Below are positions 29,952 to 41,267 of a stretch of DNA of 64,000 nucleotides, in pieces. The number at the start of each line of letters is the position of its first letter. Position 1 is the first letter of the stretch. Origin of the DNA: Pseudomonas sp. Lineage in GTDB: Bacteria > Pseudomonadota > Gammaproteobacteria > Pseudomonadales > Pseudomonadaceae. Under the pieces are notes generated by a model, which did not search any database, was not told the DNA's origin, and worked only from the letters and a program-made list of their open reading frames with translations. The stretch lies in assembly GCF_030684895.1 (NCBI RefSeq), contig NZ_JAUXXP010000046.1, positions 1-64,000 of the forward strand, in the 5' to 3' direction. The position numbers and the translations under genes were made by a program.

Positions 29952-31136
29952 ATGCGTGAAGTGGTGATCGTTGACAGCGTACGGACTGGCTTGGCCAAGT
30001 CCTTCCGTGGCAAGTTCAATCTGACCCGTCCAGACGACATGGCGGCTCATTGCGTCAATGCATTGCTGGCGCGTAGCGGCATCGACCCGGCGCTGGTGGA
30101 TGATTGCATCGTCGGCGCCGGCTCCAATGAAGGCGCTCAGGGCATGAACATCGGCCGCAACGTCGCAGTGTTGTCTGGCCTGGGCACCAACGTGGCCGGC
30201 ATGACCCTCAACCGTTTCTGCTCCTCGGGTCTGCAGGCCATTGCGATTGCCGCCAACCAGGTGGCGTCCGGCTGCAGTGATGTGATTGTGGCCGGTGGTG
30301 TTGAGTCGATCACCATGACCCTGAAGAGCATGAACACGCAGAACCTGTTCAACCCGCTGCTGCAAAAAGAGGTGCCGGGCATCTATTACCCGATGGGCCA
30401 GACCGCCGAGATCGTCGCCCGCCGTTACAACGTCAGCCGCGAAGCCCAGGATGCCTACGCCCTGCAGAGCCAGCAGCGCACTGCACGGGCTCAGGCCGAA
30501 GGCCTGTTCGACGATGAAATCGTGCCGATGCACGTCAAGTATCAAGTCGAAGACAAAGCCACGGGCGAGAAGAGCATCGTCGACGGCATCGTCGCCCACG
30601 ACGACTGCAACCGTGCCGACACCACCCTGGAAAGCCTGGCCGCGCTCAAACCAGTGTTTGCTGATGACGGTTCGGTCACCGCAGGCAATGCCTCGCAGCT
30701 GTCCGACGGCGCTTCCATGACCCTGGTGATGAGCCTGGAAAAAGCCATCGAACTGGGCCTCAAACCGCTGGCGTTTTTCCGCGGTTTTGTTGCTGCTGGC
30801 TGTGAACCGGACGAGATGGGCATTGGCCCGGTGTTCTCGGTGCCCAAACTGCTCAAGGCCAAGGGGTTGAGCATTGCCGATATCGACCTGTGGGAGCTTA
30901 ACGAGGCGTTTGCTTCGCAGTGCCTGTATGCGCGCGACCGTCTGGAAATCGACAACGCCAAGTACAACGTCAGTGGCGGCTCAATCTCTATCGGTCACCC
31001 GTTCGGCATGACCGGCTCGCGTCAGGTCGGCCATCTGGTGCGTGAGCTGCAGCGTCGCAAGCTGCGCTACGGCATCGTCACCATGTGTGTAGGCGGCGGT
31101 ATGGGCGCAACCGGGCTGTTTGAAGCGGTGCGCTGA
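29952..31136 (+). CDS. Acetyl-CoA C-acyltransferase (thiolase)
   Basis: MREVVIVDSVRTGLAKSFRGKFNLTRPDDM; NRFCSSGLQAIAIAANQVASG; GGSISIGHPFGMTGSRQVGHL; CVGGGMGATGLFE. Confidence 0.95.
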   Translation: MREVVIVDSVRTGLAKSFRGKFNLTRPDDMAAHCVNALLARSGIDPALVDDCIVGAGSNEGAQGMNIGRNVAVLSGLGTNVAGMTLNRFCSSGLQAIAIAANQVASGCSDVIVAGGVESITMTLKSMNTQNLFNPLLQKEVPGIYYPMGQTAEIVARRYNVSREAQDAYALQSQQRTARAQAEGLFDDEIVPMHVKYQVEDKATGEKSIVDGIVAHDDCNRADTTLESLAALKPVFADDGSVTAGNASQLSDGASMTLVMSLEKAIELGLKPLAFFRGFVAAGCEPDEMGIGPVFSVPKLLKAKGLSIADIDLWELNEAFASQCLYARDRLEIDNAKYNVSGGSISIGHPFGMTGSRQVGHLVRELQRRKLRYGIVTMCVGGGMGATGLFEAVR

Positions 31137-31268
31137 TCAGCGTCGCGATAAATGTCAGGCAATAAAAACCGTGACTAATCTCGTTACAGCACAAATTGCA
31201 CTAAAACTCTGTGAGTGAAGGCCTTCAGGTTAATTTGCTTTTCAGTACATGTACCATTAGGTGTACCA

Positions 31269-31305
31269 CTCCCCGTTGGCGCAAGCCGCAGGGAGTTTTC
31301 TTTTT
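31269..31305 (+). terminator. Putative rho-independent terminator
   Basis: CTCCC CGTTGGC GCAA GCCGCA GGGAG followed by TTTTCTTTTT. Confidence 0.7.
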
Positions 31306-31395
31306 CAGGCGATTAGCATCTCGGAAAGCCCAACGTGCCGGCCAAATGCCTTCGGCGGATGCGCAACACTCAACACATCGACCAATTTCCAAACC

Positions 31396-32340
31396 ATGCC
31401 ATCAATAACTAAAGACATCGCGCTTTGCGCTCAGTACCTACGCGACGGTCATTTGATCGCCATGCCTACCGAAACGGTTTACGGTCTAGCTGCTGACGCA
31501 CTGCAGGAAAGCGCGGTTAACAGAGTCTTCGCCTTAAAAGGACGGCCCAGTACGAACCCTTTGATCGTCCATATTCACGATGCTGAACAGGCAAGCCAGT
31601 GGGCAGCAGAAATTACTCCGCAAACTCAACGCCTGATGGCAGCCTTCTGGCCTGGCCCCTTAACGCTGGTATTACCAGCTCGCGATGAGGTGTTGCGTTG
31701 TGTTACAGCCGGGCAGAACAGCGTGGCCATTCGCGTACCGGCGCACCCAATGGCACAACAGCTACTGCGCTCTTTTGGTAGCGGCCTGGTGGCTCCTTCG
31801 GCCAACCGCTATATGTCAATCAGCCCGACCAGCGCCGAACATGTGGCTAAGCAGTTTCATGACAGCGAGCTGACCGTATTGGACGGTGGTCCCTGCCAGG
31901 TTGGCCTTGAGTCGAGCATTGTCAGTCTATTACCGGGTGACAGGCCGCGGTTGCTGCGCCGCGGCATGATTAGCTGCATGCACTTGCAGCAAATACTCGG
32001 AGAGCAACTTGAAGAGAGCGCTGGCGGCTTGCGCGCTCCGGGCCAACACCTGCGTCACTACGCGCCCACAACCCCGGCACAGAGTTTTACCCAGCCCCCT
32101 GTTGACGCGCTAGATAGCCACGCAAATGGCTGGATCTGGTGCGGTCATGCTCACGCTAGCCAAGGCCCAGGGATTAATCTAGGCAGTGATCCCGAGCAGT
32201 ACGCAGCCGGCTTTTACGCGGCACTTTACCAACTCGATGCCCTGGGTCTACAGCGCATCTATATCCAGCTGCCACCGCACCAAGAAGCCTGGGCCGCTGT
32301 GCATGACCGTATGACGCGAGCCTGTCATTCGATAGCCTGA
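31396..32340 (+). CDS. Full-length Sua5-type L-threonylcarbamoyladenylate synthase
   Basis: YrdC domain GHLIAMPTETVYGLAADALQESAVNRVFALKGRPSTNPLIVHI, FWPGPLTLVLPA, SGLVAPSANR; linker APGQHLRHYAPTTP and C-terminal Sua5 domain. Confidence 0.9.
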   Translation: MPSITKDIALCAQYLRDGHLIAMPTETVYGLAADALQESAVNRVFALKGRPSTNPLIVHIHDAEQASQWAAEITPQTQRLMAAFWPGPLTLVLPARDEVLRCVTAGQNSVAIRVPAHPMAQQLLRSFGSGLVAPSANRYMSISPTSAEHVAKQFHDSELTVLDGGPCQVGLESSIVSLLPGDRPRLLRRGMISCMHLQQILGEQLEESAGGLRAPGQHLRHYAPTTPAQSFTQPPVDALDSHANGWIWCGHAHASQGPGINLGSDPEQYAAGFYAALYQLDALGLQRIYIQLPPHQEAWAAVHDRMTRACHSIA

Positions 32341-32346
32341 GTTGCC

Positions 32347-33276
32347 CTATTGCGGTAACTCGGGTACTGCCAGCTCGCCTTTATCGTCAACAAAAGTGGC
32401 AAACGCCTGGGCTACAGGAGACGGGTTTTTAGTGCGCCAACTCACCAAGTACCAGCGGTTGGGTATGGGAAAGCCGACTACATCCAACTCCACCAAATTG
32501 CCTGGTGCAGTGTGAATCAGCGTGTGCCGCGAAAGGATCGCGATACCCAGCGCAGCGGCGACTGACTCTTTGATGGCCTCGTTACTCTCGATGGTCATCT
32601 GCGGCTTTAGGCTCCAGCCAAACTGGGCAAAATGCTGTTCGATGGCTAGACGAGTGCCAGACCCAGGCTCTCGGCTCAAGAACGGTTCTGCAGCTATTTG
32701 CTCCCACGATATGCGCTTACCGGTAAATCGGTGACCTGCTGGCGCGATCACGACCAATGGGTTTTCAGCAAGCGGGATGGAGACAAGGTCTAAGTTTTTC
32801 GGCGGCTGACTGAACACATAAAGATCATCACGATTATTTTCGAGCCGACGGATAACCTCCGAGCGATTGGCTATGTTGAGCTGCACCTCAACCTGTGGAT
32901 ATTGGCTGCAAAAAGGGCCAAGTAGGCGCGGTACAAGATACTTTGCCGTGGTTACAGCGCCGAGCCGTAGCCGACCAACCGTTAGCCCGTTTAACTTAGC
33001 CAAGCTCATCTCTAATCGATTAAGCGCATCGAAGATCTCCTGCGCCCCTGACTGCACTTCACTACCCGCATCGGTCAAATACAGACGTTTGCCCAATTGC
33101 TCAAACAGCTTCATGCCCAGCGCTTTTTCCAGCTTGGCAATCTGTGTGGATACCGATGGTTGTGCCAAGTGCAAAGCCCTGGCTGCCTCTGTGACATTGA
33201 GTCGTTCGGCCACTTCGAGAAATGTTTCGAGTTGGCGAAAAGTGGTCTGGCGGGTATGAAAGCGTGGATTATCCAT
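32347..33276 (-). CDS. LysR family transcriptional regulator (CbbR/CysB-type)
   Basis: HTH: TTFRQLETFLEVAERLNVTEAARALHLAQPSVSTQIAKLEKALGMKLFEQLGKRLYLTDAG; LysR substrate-binding domain. Confidence 0.9.
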   Translation of the reverse strand: MDNPRFHTRQTTFRQLETFLEVAERLNVTEAARALHLAQPSVSTQIAKLEKALGMKLFEQLGKRLYLTDAGSEVQSGAQEIFDALNRLEMSLAKLNGLTVGRLRLGAVTTAKYLVPRLLGPFCSQYPQVEVQLNIANRSEVIRRLENNRDDLYVFSQPPKNLDLVSIPLAENPLVVIAPAGHRFTGKRISWEQIAAEPFLSREPGSGTRLAIEQHFAQFGWSLKPQMTIESNEAIKESVAAALGIAILSRHTLIHTAPGNLVELDVVGFPIPNRWYLVSWRTKNPSPVAQAFATFVDDKGELAVPELPQ

Positions 33277-33308
33277 TGTTAATCAGCAATAGTTTATTGG
33301 TTAATAAT

Positions 33309-33324
33309 CTATTATCGATTATAG
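33309..33324. promoter_or_regulatory. AT-rich near-palindrome in divergent lysR/zinc-ribbon intergenic region
   Basis: CTATTATCGATTATAG, 14/16 symmetric, in the gap between divergent genes. Confidence 0.4.
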
Positions 33325-33373
33325 CAAAGACTGACGAAAATCCAGGTTACTGCCAACCTAGGAAGCTCAAGCC

Positions 33374-34231
33374 ATGTCAGCTGCCACACCTTATAACGGT
33401 GTTCATTCACTGTTACCGGCAAGAAATCGAGTCTCATTTCTCACATGCCACGATAAAACGCGCCTGGTCAGCGAACCTTTAGACGCACTGGGCTTTGCGC
33501 TGGAGCCGCTGGCGATTTATGACACAGATCATTTTGGGACCTTCAGTCGAGAAGTGAGCAGAACGGGTACTGCGAAGGACACCGTACTGGCAAAGGCCAA
33601 GCTCGCTGCCGAATTGGCTGGCTTACGCTTTGGCCTCGGCAGTGAAGGTAGTTTTGCTAAAGACCCCCACATTGGCTGGATGCCTTGGGATTATGAGCTG
33701 CTCTGTCTATGGGATAACGAGCGCCAATATGCCGTTTTCGCCCTAGCGGGCTCAGGAGCTACCAACTATTCGCATTGCGAAATCGAGGATATCGATGCAG
33801 CAGTCAAATTCATGGATAAAGCGCTATTTCCGGAACACGCGCTGATCCTTGGCAAGCCCGGTGATGCCTGGTTCCGTAAAGGAATACGGGATCGCGACTG
33901 GCTAATCGATCAATTGCACTGGCTACTGTCTAGCCCCAAACGAATCTGGCTAGAAACTGACATGCGGGCCCATTTAAACCCAATGCGTCAGGCCGTTATC
34001 CGCGAAGCTGGGGTTGAGTTAGCCAAACGACTCTCTAGTCGTTGCCCCGAGTGCGCAGCAATGGGATTCGCGGTGGTACGCAGTGAGCCAGGGCTCGTAT
34101 GTATGGACTGCGGAATCAGCACTCCGCTGGCAAGCGCTCACACATGGGAATGTCCTGCATGCGCGCACATCGAACGCCGTCCCGTCACCACAAAAGCCCC
34201 TGCGATAAACTGCGAATTCTGCAACCCATGA
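33374..34231 (+). CDS. Protein of unknown function with C-terminal zinc-ribbon cysteine pairs (DUF6671-like)
   Basis: 285 aa; C-terminal CPEC...CMDC...CPAC...CEFC pairs; N-terminal [28 protein letters not shown]. Family name recalled, not checked. Confidence 0.8.
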
Positions 34232-35163
34232 CAATCTATAACCAATCCTCAATGGGCCTTGGTCACCTGCGAGAGCTGGAAGCTGAAGCCATCTACATCC
34301 TGCGTGAAGTAGTTGCCGTGACGCGTAACCCTTGCCTGTTCTACTCAATCGGCAAAGATTCCACCGTATTGCTGCACCTGGCACGTAAGGCGTTTTATCC
34401 GGGTACGTTGCCGTTCCCGCTTCTACACGTGGATACCGGCTGGGAGTTTGCTGAGATGGCGCAGTTTCGCGACAACCTGGCCAAACGTTTGAGCCTGGAC
34501 ATGCGCGTACACGTCAACCCAGATGGTGAGCGCTTAGGCATTACGCCTTACTCGGTCGGTTCGGCCAAATACACCGATGTGATGAAAACTGAAGCGCTCA
34601 AACAGGCGCTGGATCAGTATGGGTTTGATGCTTGCTTTGGCGGTGCGCGGCGTGACGAAGAGAAATCGCGAGCCAAGGAACGCGTATGTTCATTCCGCGA
34701 TGCCAATCATCGCTGGGAACCCAAGCAACAGCGCCCGGAACTTTGGCAGCTGTACAACACCCAGATCGGACCAGGGGAGAGCCTGCGCGTCTTCCCCTTA
34801 TCGAACTGGACCGAGCTGGATATTTGGCAGTACATCTATCTGGAGAACATCGAGATCGTCGACCTCTACCGTGCAGCTCCACGGCCTGTGGTGGAGCTGC
34901 ACGGCACGCTGATCTGTATTGACGATGAACGCATCCTGCCGCACTTATCCACTGAACAGCGCGCCAGCATCGAGACTCGCTGGGTACGCTTCCGCACCCT
35001 GGGTTGTTATCCGTTGACCGGCGCAGTGGAGTCCACCGCGACTGATCTGCCGCAGATTATTCAAGAAATGCTGATAACACGGACCTCTGAGCGTCAAGGC
35101 CGGATCATTGATCATGACCAAGACGGCTCAATGGAGAAGAAAAAAGTCGAAGGCTACTTCTAA
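34228..35163 (+). CDS. CysD-like sulfate adenylyltransferase subunit 2 (orphan paralogue)
   Basis: PP-loop [85 protein letters not shown]-type C-terminus. No cysN follows; ATGA overlap with previous gene. Confidence 0.92.
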
Positions 35164-35167
35164 AAAG

Positions 35168-35188
35168 ACCGCGCCAAGGTGGCGCGGT
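35168..35188. terminator. Hairpin between convergent cysD-like gene and dabA
   Basis: ACCGCGCC-AAGGT-GGCGCGGT stem in a 34-nt convergent gap. Confidence 0.6.
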
Positions 35189-35197
35189 GTTAATTCC

Positions 35198-37645
35198 TCA
35201 ACGTGGTAGCGGCTGCCATCCTTCAGTCGTGCGACGTTCCAATATGTCGCGGCAATTGCTGTCAATGCGCAGCAGATAAAGCCAGCCATGCATCACCAGG
35301 TCGCTGACTGCAGCATGCTCGGCGATAACCTTATCAATCATGCTCTGCGGCGCTTCAATCACCACTGTCAGCCGCAGTGGCCGATGAATCCAGTTCTTAC
35401 CGTCATGCAGCGACTGGTGCGCCAGGCCGATGCGCAAATCGCCTCCGTTGCCTTCGAACACGCCGATACGACCGCCGACCACGTTGTGCAGCACCTTGTT
35501 ACCGCTGCCAAAACGCAGGTTGTCGGTGGTGGAGGTCAGGTACTGCAGATTGATCCAGTTAGCGACCACCATGGGGGCGGTCATGATCAACTCCAGCACT
35601 TCACCGCTGGTGTCCTGCTGCCAGTCGTAGTCGTGCAAGAAAGCGCGGCCCTGCAAGTTCTGCCCGCAGGTCCTTAGGCGCGGCGCTGCTATAAACGCGG
35701 CGTTGCCGGCCAGGCCCCACTCTGGTCGAGTCTGCGCCCAGTCTTTGCCACGCCGGCGCAAGATGCTCAGCAGTTTTCCCGGCTTTTCGCTCACGTTCGC
35801 CAGCCCTAAAAGAGCGGCACGCTCGCGTCGGGCGCGTTCACCGGCGTCGTCGAGGGCTTGGCGCAGTGTCCGCCAAGATTGCTGCAAACGCTGAGGCAGC
35901 GACTCGCTGGCAAACACCTGGATCTCATCGGTGGTGGTATTATGCAGGCCTGCCAGTACCCGGCAGTCTACTGGCAGATCAATGCCCTCGTTGATTAGGG
36001 CTTTACGCACCTCAGTATCATTTAACACGTCGGCCAGCACGCGGGCGTTGACCTCGCCGCTCTGGCCGCAACAGGCACCACAATCCAAGCCAGCGGCTTG
36101 CGGGTTATTAGTACTTTGGCTGCCATGCCCCAGCAGTACTAGCAGCGGCGGGAAGTCATGAGTGAGGCTCATAGCGCGCAAGATACGCGCCGCCATACTC
36201 GTCCGCTGCTCAAGTGTGATCACGGGTAACGTCGGCTTTAACTGTAGCCACTCGCTTGGCCGAAAAGCGTTGCGATCAGGCGCGGATGGACGGGACAGGA
36301 GACCGCCGACGCGCCCCAGTAGTGCGCCGGCATAACCCAGCCCCAAGGCTTCAACCAACGTAAATGTCGAGGCTGGCAAGCGCTCAAACAGCTGCCAGCG
36401 GCCGGCACGTTCCAAGCGTAGATTGCGCTGGCTGGCCAGGGCCCGGTCGCGGGCGGCATCGCCGCTGCTGTCAGTTACGGTTAACTGCGCAGCCAGCAAT
36501 CCCGGAAGTTGCGGCCGCGTGGCTTGCGTGCCCAAAGGGGTGTAGGCGATCGGTAGACCAAAGAATCCAGCAAAACCACCGGTCTGGACCTGCGGACAAG
36601 CCTCTTCAAGGGCGCGACGAAGCACCTCTGAGCGCACGTCAATACAGAAATACACCCGTGCGATCGGCGTAGCCACGGCCTTAGGTTTGACCGGTTGTTG
36701 CAGCATGCCTTGCAGCTGCTCCTGCCAGGCCAGCTCCTCGGCCCGCTGCCACAGTTGCAGAGCCTGCCACTGTGATGTGGGGACCTGTTCGCGAGCGGTT
36801 TGCCAAGCTACGCGCCACGCACTCCAACAGCTGTCAGCATCTCGCTGGCGGTCATCAACCAGCCATTCCCAAGCTGCGCGAATGGCCAGCAGTTCCTGCA
36901 GCACCGGATCATCACCGCCTTCTAGCCTCGCTTGCCAACGCTGATACGCGCACCAAGACGCCCAGCCGAGGCTGCGTAGCAGCAGGCAATCAAACCACTC
37001 GCTTAGTTCGTGCTCGGCAAGGCCCAAACGCTGAACCGCCGATTCGAGAGCAGCATGCGGTTCCAGGGGTAACTCAGCGATCCGCTCACCCAGCGAGCGG
37101 CAAGCGCTGAGCACGCTTAAGCCACGGTTCTGCAACATTGACTCACGCCAGGCTTGGTAGAGGCTGACCTGCTTCGCTGGACGCCAGTCGGACTGATTTT
37201 CGTCGAACCAAGCGGCGCAGCTTTGGCCGATTTGCTGGGTAATCAATGCAGGCCAGCCAGGTACTTTCATTTCAGCCTTAGCCATGTCTTCCAATAGCGG
37301 CAGGCCCTGGGCAGTAACGGCCGGTTGGTCAAGTAGCTGCAGCAATTGTGGCGGTGTCCATGGATGCGACGTTTCAGCCAGAGCCAGATCTAGGTGGTGT
37401 TGATTGATCTGTCCGGTTTGCCAGGCAGTGCGATAGTCGGCCGCAGTGAGGGTCAAGCGTGTGCCCGCGCGGCGCCAGAGTTGTTCGGCTACTGCCGCCC
37501 AAGGTTGGTCACGTCGCTCCCAGAGTGGGTTAACAGCAATCATGCGATCTAGTGGCCAAGTCGGTGCAATACGCTCGCAGGCCTGCCGAGCGATTTTATG
37601 CAGAGCAACCTTATTAATGCTGGCGATGTGTTCGAGCGCGGTCAT
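35198..37645 (-). CDS. dabA: DabA, DUF2309 inorganic-carbon transporter subunit
   Basis: MTALEHIASINKVALHKIARQACERIAPTWPLDRMIAVNPLWE; carbonic-anhydrase-like YFCIDVRSEVLRRALE, LLGHGSQSTNNPQAAGLDCGACCGQ; C-terminal MLTVVIEAP-type RLTVVIEAPQSMI; start overlaps dabB stop. Confidence 0.92.
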   Translation of the reverse strand: MTALEHIASINKVALHKIARQACERIAPTWPLDRMIAVNPLWERRDQPWAAVAEQLWRRAGTRLTLTAADYRTAWQTGQINQHHLDLALAETSHPWTPPQLLQLLDQPAVTAQGLPLLEDMAKAEMKVPGWPALITQQIGQSCAAWFDENQSDWRPAKQVSLYQAWRESMLQNRGLSVLSACRSLGERIAELPLEPHAALESAVQRLGLAEHELSEWFDCLLLRSLGWASWCAYQRWQARLEGGDDPVLQELLAIRAAWEWLVDDRQRDADSCWSAWRVAWQTAREQVPTSQWQALQLWQRAEELAWQEQLQGMLQQPVKPKAVATPIARVYFCIDVRSEVLRRALEEACPQVQTGGFAGFFGLPIAYTPLGTQATRPQLPGLLAAQLTVTDSSGDAARDRALASQRNLRLERAGRWQLFERLPASTFTLVEALGLGYAGALLGRVGGLLSRPSAPDRNAFRPSEWLQLKPTLPVITLEQRTSMAARILRAMSLTHDFPPLLVLLGHGSQSTNNPQAAGLDCGACCGQSGEVNARVLADVLNDTEVRKALINEGIDLPVDCRVLAGLHNTTTDEIQVFASESLPQRLQQSWRTLRQALDDAGERARRERAALLGLANVSEKPGKLLSILRRRGKDWAQTRPEWGLAGNAAFIAAPRLRTCGQNLQGRAFLHDYDWQQDTSGEVLELIMTAPMVVANWINLQYLTSTTDNLRFGSGNKVLHNVVGGRIGVFEGNGGDLRIGLAHQSLHDGKNWIHRPLRLTVVIEAPQSMIDKVIAEHAAVSDLVMHGWLYLLRIDSNCRDILERRTTEGWQPLPR

Positions 37646-39183
37646 AGGCGTTCTCCAGTTGCAGGCATGGCGGACTGCGACCGAGTTAACGGCCACAGGC
37701 GGAAAGTCAGGCGGGTAAAGTGTTCATCCAGATAAAAGCCGGCAAAAGCCAGGGGGTAGAGTCGCCGGGCGAGTGCGCCTTCAGGTTGGGTAATAATCAA
37801 GGCTTGCAGCGCGTAAAGGCTGAGAAACAGAAGCAACGCGAATAGTCCAAGATACTGCTGAAAATCACTCGTCGTAGGGCTAGAGCCCAGCACGTGCGCG
37901 GCAGCCATGTGCCAGAGCAAGTAGCAGCCAAGCAAGAGCGTAAGCATGCCCAGGCTGTGCAGAGCGCCACTGAGGCGCATACACCAAGGCGCAAGACCAA
38001 TAGCCAAAATAACCAAGGCCATCGCGGGTAGCGAATGCATTGGCAGCAGCAGACTCCAGATGCCATGCAGCAGTACCAACCAGGCCATAACCATAACCAG
38101 TGCCCACAGGGCAAGCCTAAGGCTGGCGGGTGCAGCGTCTTTATGCAGGGTCTGCCTACGCACTTGGGCAACGGTATCGCCAGCCCCGAGAAAGGCATAA
38201 GCCTTGTACAGGGAGTGAGCCAACAGGTGCACTAGGGCTAATTCGTAGAGCCCCAAACCGCACTCCACAAGCATCAACCCCATCTGTGCGCAGGTTGACC
38301 AGGCCAAACGTACCTTGATGCTGATACGGGTCATCATCACAAGACCGGCAAGCACAACCGTCCCCCCGCCCACGACTACCAACAGGGTTTGCGCCGCAGG
38401 TGCAGCGGATAGCAAGGGGGCGAAACGAAGCAGGACAAAGCCGCCCAGGTTGACCAGGCCGGCATGCAGTAGAGCCGAAACGGGTGTCGGTGCTTCCATC
38501 ACCTGAATCAACCAGCCGTGAACCGGCAGCTGGGCGGATTTGAGAATCACCGTCAGCACCAGCAGCACAGTTGCCAGTTGTAGGTCCCAGCCCAAAGTAC
38601 CGCTTGCCTGCAGACGCCGAGCGACTTCATCGAGCATCACTGCAATAGCGCTATCACCGCCGGCGTGTACCAACAGCACGGTCGCCACAATCAGGCAGAG
38701 GTCAGCCAAGCGGCTGGCAAGAAATTTCTTGTGGGCCACAACGTGGGCCATGGGGCGGTCACGGTAAAAGGTCAGCAGTTGATGCAAGCACAGGCTGGAC
38801 ACGATCCAAGCAGCGACCAGCACATACAAATCGCCGCTGGTGACTACCACTGCTACCGCCGCCAGGGTGCCTAGGAGCGCCAGGATATAGCGTTTCTGTC
38901 CAGGCTCACCGTCTAGGTAGCGCTGCGAAAAATCGATGATGACCAGCGCCAAAAGGCTGATTAGCGTGGCCATGGCTAGCCCCAGGCGGTCGCTGTCAGG
39001 TTCGTCCAGCGCCCCTTGTAAAAGAGCAGCCAGAAGCACGGAAAAGCCTGCGTAACCGGCCAGTCGTGCTGGCCACCAGAGTCGTCCAATTGGCGAGGTC
39101 GATGGGTTCAAAGCCACAGGTAGCATGGCCAGCAGGTAAATCCAGGGCAGCAGGGTGCTCAATTGGGGGAGCAAGAGTGACAT
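37642..39183 (-). CDS. dabB: DabB, NuoL/MrpA-like proton-conducting membrane subunit
   Basis: 513-aa polytopic protein; LKSAQLPVHGWLIQVMEAPTPVSALLHAGLVNLGGFVLLRFAPLL...HLLAHSLYKAYAFLGAGDTV. Confidence 0.92.
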   Translation of the reverse strand: MSLLLPQLSTLLPWIYLLAMLPVALNPSTSPIGRLWWPARLAGYAGFSVLLAALLQGALDEPDSDRLGLAMATLISLLALVIIDFSQRYLDGEPGQKRYILALLGTLAAVAVVVTSGDLYVLVAAWIVSSLCLHQLLTFYRDRPMAHVVAHKKFLASRLADLCLIVATVLLVHAGGDSAIAVMLDEVARRLQASGTLGWDLQLATVLLVLTVILKSAQLPVHGWLIQVMEAPTPVSALLHAGLVNLGGFVLLRFAPLLSAAPAAQTLLVVVGGGTVVLAGLVMMTRISIKVRLAWSTCAQMGLMLVECGLGLYELALVHLLAHSLYKAYAFLGAGDTVAQVRRQTLHKDAAPASLRLALWALVMVMAWLVLLHGIWSLLLPMHSLPAMALVILAIGLAPWCMRLSGALHSLGMLTLLLGCYLLWHMAAAHVLGSSPTTSDFQQYLGLFALLLFLSLYALQALIITQPEGALARRLYPLAFAGFYLDEHFTRLTFRLWPLTRSQSAMPATGERL

Positions 39184-39286
39184 CAGAGAACCTCCGCAGA
39201 TGATCGGCAGGTTCAGTTTCTAGTAGTTGATTTTTTAATTAAAATAGATTGAATAGAACCTATCTATCTTTAATAAAGAACAATCA

Positions 39287-40159
39287 ATGCGCCGACTGAA
39301 TTTTCATCACCTGCATTACTTCTGGGCCGTCGCCAAGGAAGGCAACCTGACCCGCGCCGCACAATCATTGCATGTCGCTCAGTCGGCTCTCTCTACACAG
39401 ATTCGCGCCCTGGAAGAGCAGCTTGGTTACGCACTATTCATTCGCTCAGGCCGTAACCTGTTACTGACTGAGGCTGGCCGGCTAGCACTGGATTACGCCG
39501 AGAGCATTTTCGCCCTTGGCAACGAACTGCAAATGACCCTGCAGGGCACTCAGCAGGCTAACCAGAAGCTTCGCATCGGTGCGGTTGCCACTCTTTCACG
39601 TAACTTTCAAGAGAACCTACTGCGGCCGTTTCTAGGCCGCCGTGATGTGCACATCACGTTGGAATCGGGCAGCCTGGGGGAGTTATTGGAACGCCTGGCG
39701 CTGCACAAGCTGGACATAGTTTTAAGCAATACGCCGGTCAGTTCAGATGCCCAGCGCTCTTGGCGTTGCCAGCTATTGGATCGCCAATCAGTGTGCCTGG
39801 TCGGTCCGCCCCGTAGAGCGCCGCTACCTTTCGACCTGAAACGCGATCTGCAGCAAGTGCGCCTCATCGTGCCGGGCCGCAGTAGCGATATACGTAGCCA
39901 GTTCGAGTTGTTTTGCGACAGTCATGGTTTAAGCCCAACCATCTGCGCCGAGGTCGACGATATGGCCATGCTTCGACTCCTGGCGCGTGACTCCGGTGAC
40001 GTGGCGCTCTTACCAGCAGTGGTGGTGCAGGATGAATTACAGGCTGGCGTGCTACAGCTTTACGCACAAATCCCAGAGATTGCAGAGCAGTTTTTCGCGG
40101 TGACCCAGCAAAGACACTTCAACTTAGGGGTTCTCGATGAGCTGCTATCCGCGCATTGA
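39287..40159 (+). CDS. LysR family transcriptional regulator (NhaR-like)
   Basis: MRRLNFHHLHYFWAVAKEGNLTRAAQSLHVAQSALSTQIRALEEQLGYALFIRSGRNLLLTEAG; divergent from dabB. Confidence 0.9.
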   Translation: MRRLNFHHLHYFWAVAKEGNLTRAAQSLHVAQSALSTQIRALEEQLGYALFIRSGRNLLLTEAGRLALDYAESIFALGNELQMTLQGTQQANQKLRIGAVATLSRNFQENLLRPFLGRRDVHITLESGSLGELLERLALHKLDIVLSNTPVSSDAQRSWRCQLLDRQSVCLVGPPRRAPLPFDLKRDLQQVRLIVPGRSSDIRSQFELFCDSHGLSPTICAEVDDMAMLRLLARDSGDVALLPAVVVQDELQAGVLQLYAQIPEIAEQFFAVTQQRHFNLGVLDELLSAH

Positions 40160-40479
40160 CGCCTAGCCATGGATCGAAGAGCGCGACCTCAAGGTAAATC
40201 AAATTTTTGGGAAGATCGCGCTGGGTCTGAAAGTGACTGAGTCGGCCTGGGCTTTTTAGACAACTCAACTAGTGACCTCATCTGGCCGCTTCCTGCCATT
40301 AGCATACGGCCACCTCGGGTCAACAGTTGCCAGTCGTCAGTTCGGCGCGCGCACGTCAGGTATGCGTGCTCATGACGAATGGATTGATTGGTCAGTGGTG
40401 ATGCAAATGGGTGGTCAAGTCCTTGCAATTACGCAAGGTATGAAACGTATATTTAGGACGGCCAATAGCAATATAAAAA

Positions 40480-40508
40480 ATCAAAATAAAGCCCTCTGGA
40501 CGAGGGCT
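40480..40508 (-). terminator. Minus-strand terminator without an adjacent gene
   Basis: Minus strand AGCCCTC-GTCCA-GAGGGCT followed by TTATTTTGATTTTTT. Confidence 0.6.
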
Positions 40509-40602
40509 GTTGGTAGCTTTAGTACATAGTTGGGCGCTGCAAAGAAAGTAATCGCGGTTTTTTATTGGCTCTGTACCAAATATTGTGTTGCAGGCTGCTT
40601 TT

Positions 40603-40753
40603 GTAGGGTGGGTTAGTGGCGCTGAGGCTCGTGATGGGCGGCACCACGCAATTCGGGCGCCGCGTAACCCACCCTACGCTTTACCGCGTTTCATGCACCG
40701 TATCGCTGCTCGGGATGACTCAACAGATAACGGGTACATAGCCTTTTTATTGG
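40603..40753. repeat. Composite intergenic palindromic repeat, copy 2 (different head, same type of tail)
   Basis: GTAGGGTGGGTTA (40603-40615) / TAACCCACCCTAC (40665-40677); tail CAACAGATAACGGGTACATAGCCTTTTTATTGG (40721-40753). Confidence 0.7.
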
Positions 40754-40768
40754 CTGGGGTTTGGTGAT

Positions 40769-40978
40769 TCAGAACGCGCGGCTCTCGATGATCTCGTTGG
40801 CCTGGATCATTCGGCGGATATAGAAGGCGATCTCGCGTTCGGCATCCGTTCGGTTGAAGTAGGGACCTTCCAGGGTGCCCTCGCGGGTGGAGAAGAAGAA
40901 CTGGCCGTTGACCGCACTTACGCGCTCGCTGCGGTAGTGGGTGCCGGGGTTATGGTCGATGTTACGTTGGCCGAACAT
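40769..40978 (-). CDS. Small conserved protein (DUF6316-like)
   Basis: 69 aa MFGQRNIDHNPGTHYRSERVSAVNGQFFFSTREGTLEGPYFNRTDAEREIAFYIRRMIQANEIIESRAF; RBS GGGAGG upstream. Family name from memory. Confidence 0.75.
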   Translation of the reverse strand: MFGQRNIDHNPGTHYRSERVSAVNGQFFFSTREGTLEGPYFNRTDAEREIAFYIRRMIQANEIIESRAF

Positions 40979-41267
40979 AAATGAACCTCCCGCAAAATGA
41001 GCTGCTGAGGTCAGTCTAAACGGCGTTTTTCTGGCTGCAGAATTTAACGACAAATGGTCGTTTTTGCCGAAATTCGGTGCGGTTTTTCCGCTTTTCATAT
41101 TTTTTGACGCCATAAGGCTGACTTGATGCTGTGCGGCCATCAGTACAGTTGCCGTAAATAGCTGTGCCTGGCTGTGGCTGTGCCGGTTTGCAGCTGCGGC
41201 CTAGAATGCTGCGTTGTCGCTTCAACCTGCATCGGGCAACGGTTGCGGCACGGGTTTCGAGGCGTTT

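Follow-up and report, generated by a model that had tools for sequence, protein, structure and literature searches.

The island and its genes

The window analysed here, a stretch of 64,000 nucleotides, lies on contig C63 of a 4.4-Mb Pseudomonas genome and contains a discrete island of ~9 kb with a low content of guanine and cytosine (GC). The island (about 31.2–40.2 kb) carries sua5, lysR, the gene for a DUF6671 protein, cysD, dabA, dabB, and a second lysR. All seven open reading frames (ORFs) were confirmed by family-profile matches; the preliminary description of this DNA had placed them correctly, apart from small refinements, but had counted only six. Taken together, the results presented below show a real, recurrent, and mobile module, and its link to inorganic carbon is well supported.

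The horizontally acquired segment (31137–40768) lies between a thiolase gene, which ends at position 31136, and a DUF6316 gene (40769–41140). The empty site was found in other Pseudomonas (L186, L188, L189, L191, L192, L196, and L201), where thiolase and DUF6316–EamA adjoin without the island. Genome G014 contains a related island at a different site, at about 0.81 Mb, and has its own DUF6316–EamA pair at 1.57 Mb. The gene order was identical in three other Pseudomonas genomes (G119, G155, and G1012), and that of G014 lacked cysD and the first lysR. Among 300 Pseudomonas genomes sampled, no more than six had a DUF6671 match above the cut-off. The patchy distribution, the empty site, and the plasmid copies described below bear out the horizontal acquisition proposed in the preliminary description. 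The lower GC content reported there is real, but the dip is modest, since most of the island has 50–58% GC (minimum 50% at 33–34 kb, up to 62% inside dabA) as compared with about 61% in the flanks. A REP-like (repetitive extragenic palindromic) inverted repeat with TAGGGTGGGTTA arms, at 40605–40690 of the window, is located just to the right of the island and might mark a junction.

The DUF6671 gene (33374–34231, forward strand) encodes a protein of 285 amino acids with an N-terminal domain resembling inosine triphosphate pyrophosphatase (ITPase) and Maf, and with C-terminal cysteine zinc-ribbon motifs. The protein, previously described only as a zinc-ribbon protein, belongs to Pfam family DUF6671 (PF20376, E = 1e-40; 140.2 bits against a gathering score of 23.8). 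The invariant residues of the family are H26, K28, D52, E91–G92, D196, R198, and the Cys pairs, and the invariant motifs are HxK, DTDxxGTF, SEGSFG, KG, ETDxRAxxNPxR, and the cysteine pairs. The AlphaFold (AF2) model had a predicted local distance difference test (pLDDT) score of 91.3. When it was compared with the PDB by Foldseek, ITPase/Ham1 was the best match, followed by Maf and CinA-like folds, with probabilities of 0.99–1.0 but only weak similarity (E = 7e-3; template modelling (TM) score 0.41). HHalign against RdgB-type sequences gave a probability of 57% and E = 1e-4 over 74 columns only, and the sequence search against the PDB returned nothing but zinc-ribbon noise. The results suggest a distant nucleoside triphosphate pyrophosphatase-like domain joined to a zinc ribbon. 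The ITPase/Ham1 and Maf nucleotide pyrophosphatases are the best structural matches of the N-terminal domain and gave a short profile match; the structural match is weak (TM about 0.4), and the protein has an extra zinc ribbon and other conserved motifs (HxK, DTDxxGTF, SEGSFG, ETDMRA). It could be a sensor, or a repair or sanitising enzyme, of a low-CO2 state. There was no mention of DUF6671 in the literature searched.

The downstream cysD gene (34228–35163, forward strand) encodes an orphan paralogue of the small subunit of ATP sulfurylase, scoring over the cut-offs of TIGR02039 (461.7 bits; cut-off 396.6) and PRK12563, and its ATG at 34228 overlaps the DUF6671 stop codon. The sua5 gene (31396–32340, forward strand) encodes a Sua5-type synthase of threonylcarbamoyl-AMP (TC-AMP), an HCO3− user, with PF01300 and PF03481 matches over the cut-off and a TIGR00057 match; it is one of three YrdC-family (PF01300) genes in the genome. 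On the reverse strand are dabB (37642–39183; PF00361; NF006029, 566.8 bits), encoding a proton-conducting NuoL/MrpA-like subunit, and dabA (35198–37645; PF10070, E = 1e-253), encoding the inorganic-carbon accumulating subunit, whose ATG at 37645 overlaps the dabB stop codon. The start/stop overlaps (ATGA) of both the DUF6671/cysD and the dabB/dabA pairs suggest translational coupling. Almost the whole of DabA could be aligned with its solved homologue DabA2 (9rd0). It keeps the FCIDVRSE, GHGS, DCGAC, and LHxTTTD motifs, which contain the zinc ligands and the equivalents of Asp353, Ser356, His585, and Asp590 (residues as named in PMC13144422).

Recurrence and mobility of DUF6671 neighbourhoods

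DUF6671 loci were collected by whole-genome sampling of the genus, class, and phylum and by scanning 84,980 species genomes with an alignment. For every locus, as much as 20 kb of surrounding DNA was taken, the neighbouring ORFs were clustered without preset families, and cluster representatives were confirmed with Pfam. As a control, we used 40 random 20-kb regions from the same genomes as the 101 DUF6671 loci. The largest neighbour clusters were LysR, DabA, DabB, SbtA, Sua5, PyrC (dihydroorotase), CysD, IlvD, isocitrate dehydrogenase, and SulP, followed by BioA, PurE, PurK, Mur ligase, and BioD. A gene for DabAB, SbtA, SulP, or β-carbonic anhydrase was found within 5 kb of DUF6671 in 68 of the 101 loci, from many phyla, and in none of the 40 random regions. 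At least one transporter of dissolved inorganic carbon (DIC) or CO2-linked enzyme was present in 79 loci; sua5, pyrC, ilvD, cysD, purEK, bioAD, or murF was present in 43, for the most part on the strand of DUF6671. Of the 18 loci that came from the sampling by class and phylum, and were thus not chosen by similarity, 13 had a DIC transporter or β-carbonic anhydrase, and 15 had a transporter or CO2-linked enzyme. The comparison of single families between DUF6671 loci (n = 101) and random regions (n = 40) gave 33 versus 0 for DabA, 32 versus 0 for SbtA, 22 versus 1 for Sua5, 12 versus 0 for PyrC, and 14 versus 1 for CysD, as compared with 15 versus 15 for a generic ATP-binding cassette (ABC) family. 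DabA occurred in 11 of 14 DUF6671-bearing gammaproteobacterial genomes against a base rate of 83/369 (P = 8.6e-6).

The neighbours were also coherent in strand. Within 5 kb, the genes lying on the same strand as DUF6671 were CysD 12/12, IlvD 8/8, BioD 8/8, PurE 6/6, PurK 6/6, PyrC 11/12, and Sua5 18/20, and those of the comparison families were ABC 3/6 and short-chain dehydrogenase/reductase (SDR) 3/8. It could be argued that the island genes are neighbours by chance, as unrelated genes do accumulate on genomic islands. We give this explanation hardly any credence, since it is refuted by the recurrence across phyla and plasmids, the strand coherence, and the near absence of these genes from the control regions. 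The preliminary description had named a lack of recurrent co-occurrence as the sign of chance; the survey found that co-occurrence does recur, with DabAB, CysD, and Sua5 repeatedly associated with the zinc-ribbon gene. The bicarbonate theme recognised there proved wider than DabAB, as it also includes SbtA, SulP, PurEK, BioAD, PyrC, IlvD, and MurF.

DUF6671 was found on 12 plasmids, eight of which are conjugative or mobilizable, and all 12 showed the same theme of DIC genes and CO2-linked enzymes. The annotation of these plasmids provides an independent view. In 11 of them, dabAB or sbtA was beside DUF6671 (for P. hygromyciniae, sbtA was seen among the neighbouring ORFs of the survey and not in the plasmid gene table, which is incomplete), and the twelfth, from Methylocystis, carries ilvD–pyrC–DUF6671, acyl-CoA carboxylase, and bioA. 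Two Mesorhizobium plasmids have lysR / dabB–dabA–cysD–DUF6671 without cysN, and the orphan cysD is therefore not peculiar to Pseudomonas. A Nocardia plasmid contains dabBA and sua5–HTH (helix-turn-helix)–DUF6671. The chromosome of P. hygromyciniae contains cysD–cysN, an nhaR-like lysR, raiA, terC, DUF6671, pyrC, ilvD, sua5, a Mur ligase, and sbtA, with the cluster order TerC–DUF6671–PyrC–IlvD–Sua5–MurF–SbtA and extra IlvD copies. A plasmid of this species has a second, partly degraded copy of the chromosomal cluster.

Several individual loci deserve mention. In Sulfuricurvum (L107 and L108), icd, sulP, DUF6671, sua5, bioA, sbtA, and purK–purE lie within about 10 kb, which was the densest CO2-theme cluster observed. 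In nine loci, including L041, L068, L075, L091, L099, L106, L107, and L108, DUF6671 adjoins the gene for a bacterial isocitrate dehydrogenase that contains a PF18324 domain. TerC-family genes adjoin DUF6671 on plasmids and chromosomes (L211, L213, L217, L221, L023, L042, L057, and L083), which perhaps points to alkaline or metal stress rather than CO2 dependence. The melainabacterial L098 has dabB–dabA followed by DUF6671–CysD–DUF6671, with the second DUF6671 on the far side of cysD. At L131 (G471:C5), decayed DUF6671 reading frames adjoin an intact dabA, as in an island losing its signature gene, and the DUF6671 homologue at L028 (G153:C2:96017-96496) lacks the zinc-ribbon half and has no DIC genes nearby.

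The two regulators of the window island are each divergent from one operon. LysR regulator 1 (32347–33276, reverse strand) is nearest to CbbR (NF045990, 232.9 bits, below the cut-off of 450) and divergent from DUF6671–cysD, and the NhaR-like LysR regulator 2 (39287–40159, forward strand; NF008284, 149.4 bits, below the cut-off of 219) is divergent from dabBA, as are its relatives from dabB in many loci. Among the surveyed loci, the LysR gene nearest to DUF6671 pointed in the opposite direction in 46 of 47. A short inverted repeat is kept in each of the two intergenic regions among the Pseudomonas islands. The first, a candidate LysR operator of the form ATAATC-N7-GATTAT (33304–33322), has a ATAATCTATT core that is identical in two other Pseudomonas islands by alignment; the second candidate operator, between dabB and lysR2 (39241–39267), contains AAAATAGATTGA, which is conserved in the alignment of four Pseudomonas islands. 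We predict that both divergent operons are under CO2 control.

Lysine losses in island-borne enzymes

PurK, BioD, and Sua5 use up HCO3− or CO2, and DabAB, SbtA, and SulP/BicA-like proteins serve to bring inorganic carbon into the cell or to trap it. The remaining partners include enzymes that depend on CO2 in another way. An active-site lysine is carbamylated by CO2 in dihydroorotase (PMC8659124), and carbamylated active-site lysines have been described in the Ilv/ED dehydratase family (PMC5770437) and in the Mur ligase MurE (PMC3829189). In human mitochondrial synthesis of N6-threonylcarbamoyladenosine (t6A), the bicarbonate Km is 31 mM overall and 13 mM for the TC-AMP step (PMC5951830). Since most of the partners consume HCO3− or CO2, bear a carbamylated lysine, or import DIC, CO2 dependence is their simplest common denominator. 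A broad literature search on auxotrophy for high CO2 yielded nothing of use.

In some island copies the lysine itself has been lost. The MurF proteins of P. hygromyciniae and two Methylobacter islands have Asn (ANGE) at the position occupied by Lys (AKGE) in the canonical copies from G052 and G000. This column aligns with the AAK lysine of MurE, and from the alignment and general knowledge we take it to be the carbamylated position. Two of the MurF copies (L023 and L092) look truncated and one (L060) is complete; the Mur-like proteins of L084 and L098 are too divergent to be weighed. In PyrC of Pollutimonas (L056) and of a Uliginosibacterium metagenome-assembled genome (L065), the sequence GEAFLVGATT replaces the KYYPAGATT of other dihydroorotases, i.e. 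Lys is changed to Glu. A sequencing slip is unlikely, because the two share the protein change but differ in codons. The L065 copy gives weak support, since the start of sua5 is fused in frame to a pyrC lacking HxH (L065:11727-13074), probably as a result of deletion, rearrangement, or assembly error; the PyrC of L056 is full length.

The window CysD is 70% identical to the canonical CysD on contig C12 of the same genome, which is encoded in a cysD–cysNC pair, and keeps the PP-loop SxGKDS as SIGKDS. It is an orphan, as had been claimed: no CysN was found in the 64-kb window or beside the orphan CysD relatives within the stretches examined. We compared 12 DUF6671-linked or orphan CysDs (that of L100 being 5.4 kb from DUF6671 on the opposite strand) with 15 ordinary ones, mostly with a neighbouring cysN annotated or found by search (the adjacent CysN of L273 and L279, where gene tables are incomplete, being unconfirmed). 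At the best-separating column of 300, Lys was present in 14 of the 15 ordinary CysDs, and Glu in 11 of the 12 DUF6671-linked or orphan CysDs. The latter comprise the window copy, with Glu73 (codon 34444–34446, forward strand; WEF, as against WKF in CysN-partnered CysDs), and 10 others; the housekeeping paralogue on C12 has Lys. In the CysD tree with that residue masked, three changes were inferred, and a single Glu clade was rejected by the approximately unbiased test (p-AU 0.019).

A Lys-to-Glu change is expected for the replacement of a carbamate by a built-in carboxylate, and PyrC shows the same change at a proven site; the window CysD may therefore be a CO2-independent isozyme. By the same reasoning, the WKF lysine might be CO2-modified, as the PyrC and Mur ligase lysines are, and the ordinary enzyme may require CO2 at this position. 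For the CysD step alone, there is another explanation, compatible with the rest of our interpretation: the substitution may reflect the lack of an adjacent CysN, through an altered subunit interface or substrate, and not independence of CO2. The Glu form does coincide with the absence of an adjacent cysN, and we found no published carbamylated lysine in CysD in the literature searched. We consider this explanation rather unlikely, since the DUF6671-linked CysD of Methylobacter L092 keeps Lys although it has no adjacent CysN, and since PyrC and MurF, for which there is no CysN, show parallel losses.

The preliminary description had read the locus differently, linking HCO3− supply to a CysD-derived reaction. 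On this reading, CysD and DUF6671 would have been recruited to a new bicarbonate-using (e.g. bicarbonate-adenylating) reaction. The pair is indeed tight and translation-coupled, and DIC genes adjoin it. However, the CysD has full-length family scores and the SIGKDS loop, and the theme covers many unrelated housekeeping enzymes, because of which a supply of isozymes is favoured over a new CysD reaction. The latter is probably wrong, with only a slim chance of being correct; the comparisons suggest that the CysD, PyrC, and MurF of these islands are isozymes, some of which have lost a lysine that is known (PyrC, Mur ligases) or suspected (CysD) to be modified by CO2 and would be CO2-independent replacements.

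A proposed CO2-sparing module and its relation to known systems

The interpretation that we think probable is that the island is a mobile low-CO2, or CO2-sparing, module that increases the bicarbonate inside the cell and provides substitutes for steps dependent on CO2. By homology to the characterised complex, DabAB would trap inorganic carbon as cytoplasmic HCO3−. The extra Sua5 would add capacity for t6A formation on tRNA, a step for which studied relatives have an unusually high bicarbonate Km. The orphan CysD would work without CO2, Glu73 providing a built-in carboxylate in place of the lysine, and would probably pair in trans with the housekeeping CysN; for the lysine that ordinary CysD has in the conserved HVDTxWKF segment, we predict carbamylation or some other sensitivity to CO2. 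Islands of this kind would have DUF6671 as their signature protein, an enzyme or sensor that, to judge by its fold, resembles nucleotide pyrophosphatases and bears a zinc ribbon, and the two LysR proteins would be expected to switch on the two divergent operons at low CO2. In this account, the gene content, mobility, recurrence, strand coherence, and lysine losses were observed; function, regulation, and the role of CO2 as the signal are inferred.

An alternative is that the island acts only by bicarbonate dosage, i.e. by raising the bicarbonate supply through DabAB and the dosage of CO2-limited enzymes, and that the lysine substitutions are incidental. In Sua5, PurK, and BioD, HCO3− or CO2 is a substrate and not a modifier, and the carbamylated lysine is kept in all IlvD copies read and in most PyrC copies, so only part of the enzyme set looks CO2-independent. 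We nevertheless regard dosage alone as unlikely, given the lysine losses at known carbamylation sites of two enzyme families and the loss, with more than one origin, at the best-separating CysD column.

The retained lysines of IlvD and PyrC also weigh against a CO2-sparing module, as do several other observations. The DUF6671 loci are phylogenetically related, and the counts are thus not independent. None of the theme neighbours was present in 22 of the 101 loci, e.g. several cyanobacterial ones, and Icd, TerC, and KefB recur beside DUF6671 without being clearly explained by CO2. The L092 CysD, with its Lys and without adjacent CysN, the L060 DUF6671–cysD locus, where a CysN is nearby, and the failure to find a carbamylated CysD lysine in the literature searched belong here as well. 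Finally, the same genome has two β-carbonic anhydrases, so the host is not defenceless at low CO2. The island would thus become important when CO2 is low or when pH or demand is high, and would not be essential in general.

More tentatively, we raise the possibility that bacteria possess a mobile CO2-sparing response that has not been described before, with DUF6671 as its marker and with DIC importers combined with carbamylation-free isozymes, and that housekeeping CysD has an unrecognised CO2-carbamylated lysine that makes sulfate assimilation CO2-dependent. If the CO2-sparing interpretation is correct, DUF6671 would gain a field of function, and the presence of DabAB and SbtA in heterotrophs would be easier to explain. 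The interpretation would also single out the enzymes of t6A, pyrimidine, branched-chain amino acid, cell-wall, biotin, purine, and sulfate metabolism as those that may be the first to fail under CO2 shortage. Moreover, it would offer a genomic route to carbamylated lysines not yet known, CysD being the first candidate.

DabAB itself is already known; to our knowledge, the class of system, in which an importer, CO2-independent spare enzymes, and a signature protein are joined on mobile islands, is undescribed. The closest parallel in logic is found in the zinc-sparing paralogue islands under Zur, where zinc-independent replacements of zinc enzymes lie beside zinc importers. Both would combine an importer of a scarce factor with additional copies of enzymes, part of which have become independent of that factor. 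The scarce factor here would be CO2 or HCO3−, the genes are others, and the regulators are LysR proteins, not Zur. PyrC and the zinc ribbon had led us to consider zinc sparing under Zur as the explanation; it was rejected, as IlvD, PurEK, BioAD, Sua5, SbtA, and DabAB do not fit it, and the island is not a member of that class. The window CysD resembles that of ATP sulfurylase in its full-length family match, its identity to the housekeeping copy, and its PP-loop, and differs in having no nearby CysN, in the Lys-to-Glu change at WKF, and in the link to DUF6671. Likewise, the window DabAB has both subunits of the DAB/DAC complex (e.g. DAB2 of Halothiobacillus), the coupled start and stop, the active-site motifs, and a lysR divergent from dabB. 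It differs in its location on an island in Pseudomonas and in its association with DUF6671, Sua5, and an orphan CysD of the Glu form, and related DUF6671 islands carry SbtA or SulP in its place.

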